From NCBI RefSeq assembly GCF_000428585.1, contig NZ_AUAF01000001.1:1-64000 (forward strand): DNA of 64,000 nt. Direction: 5' to 3'. Shown here piece after piece: positions 19,690 to 28,071 of the stretch (within the stretch, counting starts at the first letter, position 1; each line of letters starts with the position of its first letter). The position numbers and the translations under genes are program-made. A model generated the notes under the pieces. It saw nothing but the letters and a program-made list of their open reading frames with translations. It was not told the origin of the DNA and ran no database searches. The stretch comes from Zooshikella ganghwensis DSM 15267 (GTDB lineage: Bacteria; Pseudomonadota; Gammaproteobacteria; Pseudomonadales; Zooshikellaceae).

Positions 19690-21003
19690 ATGAAAATGAC
19701 GCCTTTTTTCCAAGCGATTCTTAACCGTCGCATGCTGATATGCCTGTTTACGGGTTTAGTGTCTGGCCTGCCCCTATATATATTAATTTCCATGCTGCCT
19801 GCATGGCTTCGCACTGAAGGTATTGGCCTTAAAGAAATCGGCTTGTTAACACTGGTACAAATTCCTTATGCCTGGAAATTTGTCTGGTCACCGATCATGG
19901 ATGCCATCAAGCTACCCTGGCTGGGTTTACGTCGAGGCTGGATGTTAATTTCCCAACTGGCGTTATTGTTGTGTGTTTGTGGTTACGCATTTATTGATCC
20001 AACAGACTTAATGTGGGTCGCGATTATTTCCACAGCGACTGCCTTCTTTAGTGCCAGTCAAGATATCGTGATTGATGCCTATAGACGGGAAATACTACCT
20101 GACGAAGAGCTTGGCCTGGGTAACTCATTACATATCAATACCTACCGCCTCTCAGGTTTAATTCCTGGCTCTTTAGCATTGATCCTTGCGGATACTATGC
20201 CCTGGTCAACCGTCTTTTTAGTCATTGCATTATTTCTGCTTATTGGTATTGGCCTCACCCTGAGCATTGCTGAACCCAAGCACCAACTACCACCTCGCCC
20301 TACATTTCAATCTGCCGTTATTGAGCCATTCCATGAGTTTTTTACCCGCCATGGACTTCGCTATGCTTTAGCTGTTTTAAGTTTTATGGTGCTTTATAAA
20401 CTTGGCGATAACTTAGCGACGGCATTATCCACAGCCTTTTACTTAGACAAAGGCTACAGCCTGACGGAAATCGGGCTGATCGCTAAGCATGCTGGCCTTT
20501 GGCCAATGATTATTGGTGGTTTGCTGGGCGGATTAATTATGATCCGTATTGGCATCAATCGATCACTTTGGCTTTTTGGTCTTGTACAAATTGTCTCTAT
20601 TTTGGGCTTTGCCTGGCTAGCCGAAGCAGAAAAAAGCTTATGGCTACTTGCTCTCATTATCAGCTTTGAATATCTGGGAGTTGGGCTGGGTACTGCTGCA
20701 TCTGTTGCCTTTATTGCCAAAACAACCAGCAAAGCACATGCTGCAACTCAATTTGCTCTATTTACGGCATTAGCCGCTTTGCCGCGTACCACCCTCAACA
20801 CATTTAGTGGTTTTTTTGCGGAGTGGCTGGGTTGGACTCACTTTTTTATGTTCTGCACCCTGTTGGCTATTCCAGGCATGCTACTTCTCTTTTATATTGC
20901 ACCGTGGAATGGAGCCACGCGCTCAATCCCAAAGTACCCAATACCACCAAAAGATGAAGACTCATTAACCGCCAAGCCAGCTAATATTTCACAGTCAACC
21001 TAG
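19690..21003 (+). CDS. ampG: AmpG-family muropeptide permease (MFS)
   Basis: This 437-residue inner-membrane protein has about 12 transmembrane helices. AmpG imports GlcNAc-anhydro-MurNAc peptides from the periplasm for peptidoglycan recycling and so affects beta-lactamase induction. The family features are clear near the start: GLVSGLPLYILISMLPAWLR, PYAWKFVWSPIMDA, and SASQDIVIDAYRREIL (about 117-132). It lacks the extra helices of the 594-residue P. aeruginosa AmpG. The reading frame ends inside a 17-bp mobile-element end (21000-21016), which supplies the stop codon. The TAG follows SQST, so the natural C-terminus may have been altered. AmpD and AmpE genes are 6 kb away. Confidence 0.85.
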   Translation: MKMTPFFQAILNRRMLICLFTGLVSGLPLYILISMLPAWLRTEGIGLKEIGLLTLVQIPYAWKFVWSPIMDAIKLPWLGLRRGWMLISQLALLLCVCGYAFIDPTDLMWVAIISTATAFFSASQDIVIDAYRREILPDEELGLGNSLHINTYRLSGLIPGSLALILADTMPWSTVFLVIALFLLIGIGLTLSIAEPKHQLPPRPTFQSAVIEPFHEFFTRHGLRYALAVLSFMVLYKLGDNLATALSTAFYLDKGYSLTEIGLIAKHAGLWPMIIGGLLGGLIMIRIGINRSLWLFGLVQIVSILGFAWLAEAEKSLWLLALIISFEYLGVGLGTAASVAFIAKTTSKAHAATQFALFTALAALPRTTLNTFSGFFAEWLGWTHFFMFCTLLAIPGMLLLFYIAPWNGATRSIPKYPIPPKDEDSLTAKPANISQST

Positions 21004-21016
21004 GGCCTGTTAACAC
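21000..21016. repeat. Solo copy of the MITE terminal sequence at the ampG stop codon
   Basis: CTAGGGCCTGTTAACAC is identical to 26303-26319, the left end of the element at the ampE end. The TAG within it is the ampG stop. No matching right end follows; the next 26 bp are a terminator hairpin. Confidence 0.65.
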
Positions 21017-24275: not shown

Positions 24276-26273
24276 ATGGCTAGTTTTCGCCGGTACTTAG
24301 CAAATGACTCTATCAGCGGCAAGCTGCTCACGCTGTTAATTTCAGTGACAGTGTCATTGGTACTTATTGCCTGTGGTGCATTAACCATCACAACCTATTT
24401 AATTTCTAAAGAGTACAATATCACCCAGCCCTTACACCAAATTGAAGCATTATTTGGTAACCCTGTATTAATTACCTATCTATTAGAATCCCCCGAGACA
24501 AGTAAGCCCTTTCTTGCCAACCTTAGCTCTCTTACCTCACTGCAGTCACTTAACATTCTTGATGCAAATAAAACATCGCTACTTTCTTATCAGAATACAG
24601 AGAGCCAGCCAGAACTCAGCACTGAACAAAGTCAGTTAGCGGTTTACCTACCTCAAAAAAAACAAGTCGTCACGTTGGTGCTTGCCGCCAAACCTTCTTT
24701 ATCCAACGTATTAGTCCTTGCTATCCATATTGCAATTTTAGCTATTATTGCTACGGCTGGCTTGATCTGTATCTTAGCTATACGTCGAGTGAAGCATATC
24801 ATTATCCATCCCATCCTCCACCTGATTGAGCAAGCACACACCATTTCAGACTATGACAACTACAACGTGCGTGCGACCAAGTTTAACAATGATGAAATTG
24901 GTATCTTGGCAACGTCATTTAATAAAATGCTTAATAAAGTACAGGCACGGGATCAACAACTGATCAATGCCAAAGATCAAGCAGAAAAAGCCAGCCAACA
25001 AGCACAAGCTCTTGCCCTGGAAACTCAAAGAACGAATAAAAAGCTGGCTTTAGAAGTTCAGGTACGCACTCATATAGAACAAAAGCTAACGGATTTAAAA
25101 AAATACTTAAGCGATATCATTGACTCTATGCCCTCCGCACTCATCGCTATTGAGCAATCCCAGCATATTCAACAATGGAACAAACAAGCCAGCACACTCT
25201 TTGGTATAACTGAAAATGACGCCTGTGGTAAGTCTGTCTACGAAGTGATTACCTGCTTAAAAAAACATCAGGATACCATTAGTAAGGCTTTAGCACTTAA
25301 TCAAGCCCAAACAATAGAAAAAGTTGCTATCAAACATCCCAGCCAGGAAGTGCATTATTTCGATATTGTTGTTTATCCCCTCACCTACTCAGCCTCAGCC
25401 AATAACTCATCTAAAAAAGGCGCTGTTATTCGGTTAGACGACATTACCCAACGTCTTTTTATTGAAGAAGCCATAGTACAAAATGAAAAAATGATATCCG
25501 TTGGTGGCTTAGCTGCTGGAATGGCTCACGAAATTAACAACCCATTAGGAGGGATAGTTCATAATGCGCAAAATATTCAACGACGCTTATCACCCAGTTT
25601 AATCAAGAACCAAGAGCTGGCCGCAAGACTGCATATTGATATTCAGTCATTGAACCAGTATTTAGAAGAAAGGGGTATATCTCGCTTTTTAAACAATATA
25701 CAAGATGCTGGACAGAGAGCATCTAAAATAGTCAATAACATGTTGCAGTTCAGCCGAAGAAGCAACCGTGTCCTACAACCCACTCAACTAAATACACTTA
25801 TTACACGCACACTTGAAATTGCCCATAGTGACTTAGCCATCAAACAAAGCATTGAACTTAATACTATAAAAATCAGAACCTATTTTGACCCTCAGCTGGA
25901 TAAAGTACCTTGTATTAGCAATGAAATTGAACAGGTTTTATTAAATCTCATCAAAAATGCTGCCTATGCTATACACCAGCGTTCAAGCCCTCTAACGGAA
26001 GGGTTAATAAATATAAAAACCGAGCGCAAAGAGCAGCAAGCACTTATTATTGTCGAGGATAATGGTGTTGGTATGACAGCTGATGTCAGAACCCGAATTT
26101 TTGAACCTTTTTTTACAACAAAAGAAGTAGGATCAGGAACAGGTTTGGGGTTATCGGTTTCTTATTTTATCATTACCAATAATCACAAAGGCAAGATGCA
26201 AGTCAGATCAACCCCTACAGAAGGCACACGGTTCACCATTAGTTTGCCCTTAGCAGCATCTATTGCAGCATAA
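24276..26273 (+). CDS. Membrane sensor histidine kinase with HAMP and PAS domains
   Basis: This 665-residue kinase has transmembrane helices at about 18-41 and 145-170, a periplasmic domain of about 100 residues, HAMP (about 170-225), a coiled coil (225-275), PAS (about 276-395) and a dimerisation/phosphoacceptor region with GMAHEINNPLGG, where His418 is the phospho-acceptor. The ATP-binding domain has NEIEQVLLNLIKNAAYA (N box), EDNGVGM (G1) and GSGTGLGLSVSY (G2). The H-box type and NNPLGG are typical of NtrB/DctB-like kinases. The partner could be the response regulator encoded 1.4 kb upstream, but no regulator is directly adjacent. PA4398 has a similar place (from memory). The signal is unknown. 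Confidence 0.9.
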   Translation: MASFRRYLANDSISGKLLTLLISVTVSLVLIACGALTITTYLISKEYNITQPLHQIEALFGNPVLITYLLESPETSKPFLANLSSLTSLQSLNILDANKTSLLSYQNTESQPELSTEQSQLAVYLPQKKQVVTLVLAAKPSLSNVLVLAIHIAILAIIATAGLICILAIRRVKHIIIHPILHLIEQAHTISDYDNYNVRATKFNNDEIGILATSFNKMLNKVQARDQQLINAKDQAEKASQQAQALALETQRTNKKLALEVQVRTHIEQKLTDLKKYLSDIIDSMPSALIAIEQSQHIQQWNKQASTLFGITENDACGKSVYEVITCLKKHQDTISKALALNQAQTIEKVAIKHPSQEVHYFDIVVYPLTYSASANNSSKKGAVIRLDDITQRLFIEEAIVQNEKMISVGGLAAGMAHEINNPLGGIVHNAQNIQRRLSPSLIKNQELAARLHIDIQSLNQYLEERGISRFLNNIQDAGQRASKIVNNMLQFSRRSNRVLQPTQLNTLITRTLEIAHSDLAIKQSIELNTIKIRTYFDPQLDKVPCISNEIEQVLLNLIKNAAYAIHQRSSPLTEGLINIKTERKEQQALIIVEDNGVGMTADVRTRIFEPFFTTKEVGSGTGLGLSVSYFIITNNHKGKMQVRSTPTEGTRFTISLPLAASIAA

Positions 26274-26302: not shown

Positions 26303-26573
26303 CTAGGGCCTGTTAACACTATTTGAATATCACTGTTATGACGGTAAAAGCACTAATCTAGGCGCGAAGAGTGAAGTTTAGTTGTTCTAAATAAACAATG
26401 AGCAACAACGAGTAGTGCTTTTACCGTCATCACCCTTCGGGCCGTGATTATTTTTCCACCTAGCAGTGTTACAAGTCATTTATGTAGAATGACTACACGG
26501 CATTCCTTGTGCCTTGCTAAGCGAATAAATAGTCTACGGCAGTGGTGATTCAAATAGTGTTAACAGACCCTAG
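26303..26573. mobile_element. 271-bp MITE-like element inserted at the ampE 3' end
   Basis: The terminal inverted repeats are CTAGGGCCTGTTAACAC followed by TATTTGAAT on the left, and the reverse complement CTAGGGTCTGTTAACAC plus TATTTGAAT on the right: 25 of 26 match, with a further CAC nearby. Both ends carry CTAG, which may include the target duplication. Inside is a perfect 17-bp inverted repeat (26338-26354 and 26414-26430) with further nested pairings, giving a cruciform-capable core. No transposase is encoded. The right end enters the ampE reading frame. The ends recall IS5-group elements, but that is a guess. Confidence 0.8.
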
Positions 26574-27476
26574 GCTAAAATGCCAACCTATCACCAAAAT
26601 TGCCAAGCCTGCAGCCCATACTACAAGTGTCCTCATCAGCAGATCTCGGATAGCCATAAGCTCTTCAACTGCAAGCTGTTGTTGCTCTCGCCAATGATTT
26701 AGCTTTACAAACTCTTCCAAGTTCAGTGGCAGTGATAGTGCTTGGAGTCCACAGCGGGCAACAAACTCTCCTGGCTTTTCTGTCCAGTTTGCCCAAATAT
26801 GTCTTAACTCATGGTAAGCACCTGCAAAGTTACCTGAAAGGGTAAATGAAGCCGCTAACAGCCTGGCTGGCAACCACTCTAGTAAATAAAGACAGTCCCA
26901 GGCTATTGAAGCACGAACCAATGCAGGACTATGCTTTTCCATATAGTCAATATAAAGCGCATTCAGTCTATATAGCAATGCAGCCCATGGTCCTAATAAT
27001 ACAAACCAAAATACGACTGTAATTAATTGCTGTAGGGCATCATAAAACAATTGACGCCTTAAAAGAATGTATTGATTTTCTATACCTGTGACTTGCTGTT
27101 GAGCAAACTCTGGGAATATTTGTTCCGTTCGAATAAAAAGTGTTTCGGGGTTTGCTGTGCGCATAATCGCTAACACGCGATCAAGACGTTTTACAAACCC
27201 ATGCCGACCAAAACTATAAAGTAAAACTAGAACATTTAATAAAACTAAAGGCGCATTCCATAAAAAACCTTCAAGCAGCCAGGTTAAAGCCGCTAATCCT
27301 AGTAATGGAATGCTCCAGGCAAGACACCAAAGTCGTACATCAGGTACCAGCTTTACCTTAAACAAGCGCATCAAAAAACTTAACCACTGAAAGTACCAGC
27401 TGTCATGATGAATTGATTCTCGCCATCGCTTTAATTGACAGCACCCAAAGGCAATAAATATTTCCAAAAAAAGCAT
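26550..27476 (-). CDS. ampE: AmpE-like inner-membrane protein, C-terminus replaced by MITE sequence
   Basis: This 308-residue membrane protein has about four transmembrane stretches. AmpE is encoded with AmpD and modulates the beta-lactamase response to peptidoglycan fragments; its biochemical role is not settled. Recognisable AmpE features are the cytoplasmic GRHGFVKRLDRVL region, LFYDALQQLITVVFWFVLLG (about 150) and LYRLNALYIDYM. The last seven residues (LGSVNTI) and the stop are encoded by the terminal repeat of the MITE. The preceding helix (VVWAAGLAILVIGWHFS) seems complete, so only a short tail may have been lost and function is probably kept. It is 16 bp downstream of ampD. Confidence 0.85.
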   Translation of the reverse strand: MLFLEIFIAFGCCQLKRWRESIHHDSWYFQWLSFLMRLFKVKLVPDVRLWCLAWSIPLLGLAALTWLLEGFLWNAPLVLLNVLVLLYSFGRHGFVKRLDRVLAIMRTANPETLFIRTEQIFPEFAQQQVTGIENQYILLRRQLFYDALQQLITVVFWFVLLGPWAALLYRLNALYIDYMEKHSPALVRASIAWDCLYLLEWLPARLLAASFTLSGNFAGAYHELRHIWANWTEKPGEFVARCGLQALSLPLNLEEFVKLNHWREQQQLAVEELMAIRDLLMRTLVVWAAGLAILVIGWHFSLGSVNTI

Positions 27477-27492: not shown

Positions 27493-28071
27493 TTATTGTC
27501 CGTTTTTTGTCAGCAGCCGCTTATAATATTTCCAGTCAAACGCAGGTCCTGGGTCCGTTTTTCGTTCTGGAGCAATATCACTGTGCCCCACAATCCGCTC
27601 CATTGTAATACCAGGATAATACTTTATTAATGTTTGTGTTATTTTAGCTAATCGCTGATATTGAACACTTTCATAAGGCTGGTGATCAGTACCCTCAAGT
27701 TCAATACCTATCGAAAAATCATTACAGTTTTGTTGATCTAAGAATGCAGACTCCCCTGCGTGCCATGCTCTTTGATCAAAACGAACAAACTGAACTACAT
27801 TACCTTTCCGACCAATCAATAAGTGAGCCGATACTTTCAGGCTAGAGATTTCTAAAAAATAAGGATGATCACTGGGATTAAGCTGATTAGTGAAGAACTG
27901 ACGTATAAAGTCATTGCAGTACTGGCCTGGTGGCAACGAAATATTATGTATAACAAGTAAGTCAATAGTTACTGAGGCAGGACGACTGTTACAGTTTGGG
28001 CTTGGACAAAACATTGCCCCCTCAATGAGCCCATTTTCAATTGTTTCAAACACAACAAAGCCACCACACAT
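27493..28071 (-). CDS. ampD: 1,6-anhydro-N-acetylmuramyl-L-alanine amidase AmpD
   Basis: This 192-residue cytoplasmic zinc amidase cleaves the stem peptide from anhydro-muropeptides imported by AmpG and so keeps the inducer of AmpR low. Zinc and catalytic regions are visible: CPSPNCNSRP, LLVIHNISLPPGQ, HPYF, VSAHLLIG, DQRAWHAGES, NDFSIGIELEGTD and IVGHSDIAPERKTDPGPAFDW. The start is uncertain: ATG 28071 gives MCGGFVVFETIENG; a GTG at 28053 with GGTGG upstream would match the shorter Pseudomonas start. It lies between the DUF1631 gene (72 bp upstream) and ampE, likely one operon. Confidence 0.95.
   Translation of the reverse strand: MCGGFVVFETIENGLIEGAMFCPSPNCNSRPASVTIDLLVIHNISLPPGQYCNDFIRQFFTNQLNPSDHPYFLEISSLKVSAHLLIGRKGNVVQFVRFDQRAWHAGESAFLDQQNCNDFSIGIELEGTDHQPYESVQYQRLAKITQTLIKYYPGITMERIVGHSDIAPERKTDPGPAFDWKYYKRLLTKNGQ

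Follow-up and report, generated by a model that had tools for sequence, protein, structure and literature searches.

A 265-bp MITE at the 3' end of ampE in Zooshikella ganghwensis, with terminal repeats that stop translation in three frames and a core of paired hairpins

Introduction

The closest described mobile elements belong to the IS427 group of the IS5 family, which generates 2-bp repeats (PMC3281130); in one member, ISPsp10, ORF2 has no stop codon of its own and takes one from the target TAA (PMC4133298). The element described here resembles that group (e.g. ISPsp10 and the Paracoccus IS427-group elements) in its TA duplication, in the two overlapping ORFs of its putative mobile partner and in the use of a stop codon supplied by the target, but differs from it in lacking a transposase and in having a core unrelated to the insertion sequence. 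The 2-bp TA duplication of the group is present; no partner with matching ends was found in the same genome, which is a draft assembly, and the core is not of the deletion-derived type.

Other short repeats invite comparison. QMITE1 and QMITE2 of Coxiella burnetii are likewise multicopy MITEs, located at the 3' end of functional genes and supplying the stop codon or the last residues (PMC5896051). The target repeats of QMITE2 are given as 7-9 bp in a review (PMC10969869), against TA here, and by description these are other families; a class-wide conserved core is not reported in the accessible part of the Coxiella account (PMC5896051), whereas one is present here. The Rickettsia palindromic elements (RPE) are likewise palindromic repeats and end up as segments of host proteins (PMC10969869), but their in-frame insertions lie within ORFs and translation passes through them, whereas the Zooshikella element ends the ORF. 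TIMEs (Tn3-derived MITEs) are likewise about 262 bp long, have a conserved predicted RNA fold and are believed to be mobilised in trans (PMC4133298); unlike the present element, they carry Tn3-type 38-bp ends and make 5-6 bp duplications. We analysed a window of 64,000 nt, the whole stretch of DNA under study, from Zooshikella ganghwensis DSM 15267, in which an element of this general kind lies at the 3' end of ampE.

Results and Discussion

Anatomy of the element

The boundaries of the element proper were set by comparison of its copies (Table 1). The first-pass annotation of the window had described a non-coding element of 271 bp. Its non-coding nature stands, as no gene lies inside it and the longest stop-free stretch is 48 codons, but its length comes down to 265 bp once three target bases are removed from each end: the outermost C (left) and G (right) of 26303-26573 are host flank, outside the TA duplications. 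The 26-nt terminal inverted repeats (26303-26328 / 26548-26573) were reproduced exactly as annotated, with 25/26 positions matching (96%), a pattern expected by chance 0.01 times in the window. The nested inverted repeat is likewise real and was only taken too short: annotated as a perfect 17-bp repeat, it spans 24 nt with 92% complementarity (26335-26358 / 26410-26433), and direct reading gives a perfect core of 18 bp. The element strand folds at -117 kcal/mol (z about -12 against shuffles).

Table 1. Positions of the element, its parts and the adjoining genes in the window.
Feature	Coordinates	Strand	Basis or remark
Solo relic of the same terminal repeat	21001..21016	+	Its TAG serves as the stop for an MFS (AmpG-like) gene of 437 codons
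Sensor histidine kinase gene	24276..26273	+	Convergent; end 32 bp from the element
TA target duplication, left	26304..26305	.	YTAR targets of other copies; flank bases unlike on the two sides
Non-autonomous element (MITE), 265 bp, no gene	26306..26570	+	Copy comparison, ends, frames
Left terminal inverted repeat GGGCCTGTTAACACTATTTGAAT	26306..26328	+	Three-frame stops when read inward
Left hairpin arm	26325..26442	+	Matches covariance model R1, 127.8 bits, E 1.5e-28
Right hairpin arm, homologous to left arm, inverted	26443..26545	-	Left-arm profile match
Right terminal inverted repeat GGGTCTGTTAACACTATTTGAAT	26548..26570	-	Encodes GSVNTI + TGA of ampE
TA target duplication, right	26571..26572	.	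YTAR targets of other copies
ampE, 308 codons with insertion-derived tail (304 before insertion)	26550..27476	-	
ampD-like N-acetylmuramoyl-L-alanine amidase gene, upstream of ampE	27493..28071	-	

Copies and target sites

The window's own genome (G000), a 414-contig draft assembly of 5.8 Mb, holds 20 full-length copies including the one at ampE, the other 19 being 84-97% identical, together with many partial copies; about 80 family ends (81 distinct ones) were collected. The first-pass annotation had proposed a genome search and would have given up its reading if no other copies turned up; with 19 further full-length copies and these ends, that objection falls. The targets in this genome are YTAR and the TA is duplicated; since the flank bases to the left and right vary independently of each other, the duplication comprises the TA alone and does not extend to four bases. 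Copies in genomes of a related genus (G002-G004) are 84-88% identical. A search of plasmids found no copies of the element, and with a copy from another genus as query the plasmid matches were limited to two partial ones, and phages gave none.

The element therefore has the marks by which MITEs are known: it is short and without a transposase gene, has terminal inverted repeats and a target site duplication, and is multicopy and dispersed. A further mark, ends in common with an autonomous element, is provided by IS5-family elements of three other genomes (G004, G287 and G191) and not by its own. The earlier description as MITE-like is supported by the further genomic copies, by the TA duplication and by an empty site in a relative.

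The insertion at ampE

The gene was identified as ampE from a Pfam match that barely exceeds the cut-off (21.5 bits against 21), a sub-threshold NCBIfam match and the adjoining AmpD-like amidase. When the flanks in the window are joined at one TA, an open frame of 304 codons results; it ends in FSLAS*, and the TA lies 8 nt ahead of its stop. A relative of the same genus (G001) lacks the element at ampE; its AmpE has 304 aa, is 90% identical and ends in FSLAT*. With the element in place the frame reads CTA GGG TCT GTT AAC ACT ATT TGA (L-GSVNTI-stop), and since the insertion lies 8 nt before the stop, AS is replaced by GSVNTI. The right repeat had been credited with the last seven residues (LGSVNTI) and the TGA; it does supply the TGA, but only six residues, the leucine codon CTA being made up of the host C and the TA duplication. 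The claim that the element fixes a new AmpE C-terminus was borne out by the comparison with relatives proposed along with it, in that the relative with the empty site has a different, shorter tail.

The AmpE C-terminus is not conserved among relatives, and the AmpE proteins of the related genus end without a GSVNTI tail; loss of AmpE function through the tail swap therefore appears unlikely. The change in ampE is a minor tail swap. It is very probable that the 265-bp MITE inserted by transposition at a CTAG, 8 nt ahead of the ampE stop, that GSVNTI replaced AS, and that the insertion was tolerated as others are at gene ends. In this account the copies, the target, the empty site and the old and new frames are read directly from the genomes, and an IS5-family mobiliser is the part that we infer. 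The MITE would have entered the CTAG site with duplication of the TA; translation of ampE would then have continued for six codons into the right terminal repeat and ended at the TGA there, at the cost of the ancestral AS.

The terminal repeat as a translation stop

Both terminal repeats, when read inward from the TA, present a stop in all three frames: at once (TA+G), after R-A/V-C, or after G-P/S-VNTI. Sixteen ends are entered by an ORF of at least 80 codons, and these ORFs finish exactly at TA+G in 13 cases, at SVNTI-stop in two and at RAC-stop in one. One of the SVNTI-stop cases is ampE; the other is an ORF of 359 codons from the same contig (L071, G000:C1:107716-107735), which has no Pfam match and takes from another family end the same tail as AmpE. 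Nine of the ten adjoining genes scanned are supported by Pfam, with domains of a gspM-like protein, an ABC ATPase, Mut7-C, a glycosyltransferase, two acetyltransferases, a glutamate-racemase-like protein, a sigma-54 regulator and an MFS transporter. The terminal repeat supplies a stop codon generally, and ampE is not a special case in this.

Where the target is a YTAR stop codon in frame, TAG is rebuilt from the duplicated TA and the first G of the element; the in-frame TAR is already a stop, and the protein is therefore unchanged wherever the empty site can be read. Insertion at a gene 3' end would thus leave the protein intact or alter only a few residues, and for this reason such insertions would be tolerated and retained. 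Among the 22 copies in the Zooshikella genome with both ends, seven lie exactly in a stop codon, two within the last 8 nt and none inside a gene. Against a null of those YTAR sites in these loci that are not internal to genes (n=236), the stop-codon excess is significant (7/22 vs 16/236, p=0.0013), as are both classes (stop codon plus last 8 nt) together (p=0.0001); an alternative null drawn from the window gave similar values. In 54 copies of other genera the stop-codon excess was not significant (6/38 vs 21/187, p=0.29). We take the gene-end bias as tolerance combined with a target that coincides with stop codons, and not as proof of a targeting mechanism.

The same bias could be read as co-option: the element would serve ampDE and other genes as a 3' hairpin (a terminator, an mRNA stabiliser or an RNase III site), and selection for that benefit would account for its position at their ends. 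The very stable fold, the overlap of 9/22 copies with the last codons of a gene and the location bias shared by the Coxiella QMITEs (PMC5896051) are in keeping with this. It is nevertheless improbable: no intrinsic-terminator match was found in the region, genes enter the element from either end with no orientation rule seen, most copies of other genera lie elsewhere, and tolerance alone accounts for the bias.

A candidate mobiliser

An insertion sequence of ~808 bp is present eight times in the genome G004; it has GGGCCTGTTAACACTA ends, a TA duplication and two ORFs, which match DUF4096 and DDE_Tnp_1 and are assigned by NCBIfam to the IS5 family. ORF2 has no stop of its own, and all eight copies (L134-L141) use a TAG formed with the target, as VNRP-TAG or VNRL-TAG. 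Similar insertion sequences are present in G287 and G191, and the ends of the one in G287 match 15/16 element ends of that genome. The element and the IS5-family insertion sequences have 16-19 bp of their ends in common. The full-length insertion sequence with the same ends that the first-pass annotation had suggested looking for is thus present in related genomes, as the eight copies in G004 attest, and was not found in the element's own draft assembly of 414 contigs, where a search for a transposase with matching ends came back empty. The IS5-family genes of that genome were considered as mobiliser and rejected, since their ends differ (GAAGGTGTC). Separately, many contig ends of this genome (e.g. 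L164, L177 and L188) are assembly breaks caused by a multicopy IS5-family insertion sequence that has GAAGGTGTCTTAAAAATC ends and TA-like targets. We infer that the element was moved by an IS5-family transposase of the IS427-like, two-ORF type that recognises GGGCCTGTTAACACTA ends; such an enzyme would act in trans.

Many MITEs are internal-deletion derivatives of insertion sequences, and the common ends of 16-19 bp would fit an element that arose from an IS5-family insertion sequence in this way, its core being what was left over. The core, however, shows no similarity past the ends to any of the three insertion sequences that have these ends (best E 0.21), and its length and structure are kept over dozens of genera, with compensatory change at 74/95 pairs, which makes such an origin very unlikely. 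As judged from these comparisons, the core is not a remnant of an insertion sequence.

The paired-hairpin core and its distribution

The reverse complement of the right arm matches the profile of the left arm with E down to 3e-12 (1.5e-9 for the window's own copy), and shuffled controls gave no matches; the element is therefore an inverted pair of one hairpin, its core consisting of two homologous hairpins of ~110 nt. In several genomes the left-arm model detects both arms, one on each strand, and the pair is more symmetric there (e.g. G599:C48:26311-26535 and G554:C27:35282-35506). Covariation was assessed in 26 copies from many genera, all in one orientation: 95% of cells pair, and 74 of the 95 pairs have changed on both sides. 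None of 500 shuffles reached any of the measures, and slid versions of the pairing collapse. The asymmetry between G-U and A-C, by which RNA might be discriminated from DNA, is dominated by three positions. Element length is 263-267 bp in 16 copies measured and about 265 bp in most copies read.

Palindromes can self-correct, and pairing might accordingly be kept by copying errors (template switching between the arms) without selection on structure. The finding that two-sided changes far exceed one-sided ones (352 cells) speaks for such a process, which we consider less likely than not: the loop sequences are conserved too, two G-U pairs are retained in 22-23 of the 26 sequences, and most copies read are still close to 265 bp long.

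A search with a covariance model of the left arm found the hairpin in 79/390 sampled genomes (35/142 genera) of the order and in 59/369 sampled genomes (51/272 genera) of the class Gammaproteobacteria. No Rfam family matched the element near its gathering score, all matches being of chance level, and a literature search for the element's sequence words, covering open-access papers, returned nothing relevant. One copy (L295, G147:C112) adjoins a cobalamin riboswitch (Rfam 40.1 bits, above cut-off; 90-252), which lies mostly outside the element.

The core fold probably serves the element itself, in DNA folding, transposition or a structured transcript, and not AmpE with its variable tail. We tentatively suggest, at somewhat less than even confidence, that the copies represent an undescribed class-wide mobile family: an inverted hairpin pair of ~265 bp with a core selected as a folded molecule, IS5-family ends without derivation from an insertion sequence, and a three-frame translation stop.

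Implications

New in this analysis are the three-frame stop of the terminal repeat and the TA+G junction that rebuilds a stop codon at YTAR targets. The interest beyond ampE lies in the three-frame stop in the ends and in a structured core, present class-wide, that does not descend from an insertion sequence. MITEs are usually viewed as decayed insertion sequences with arbitrary cores; a core kept by base pairing over some 80 sampled genera of Gammaproteobacteria raises the question of what the fold does. The pile-up at gene ends has a simple reason, in that translation always stops no more than seven codons into the element and the protein is unaltered when the target is a YTAR stop codon. 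The remark on the target-supplied stop of ISPsp10 (PMC4133298) thereby becomes testable as a general rule for YTAR-targeting elements.
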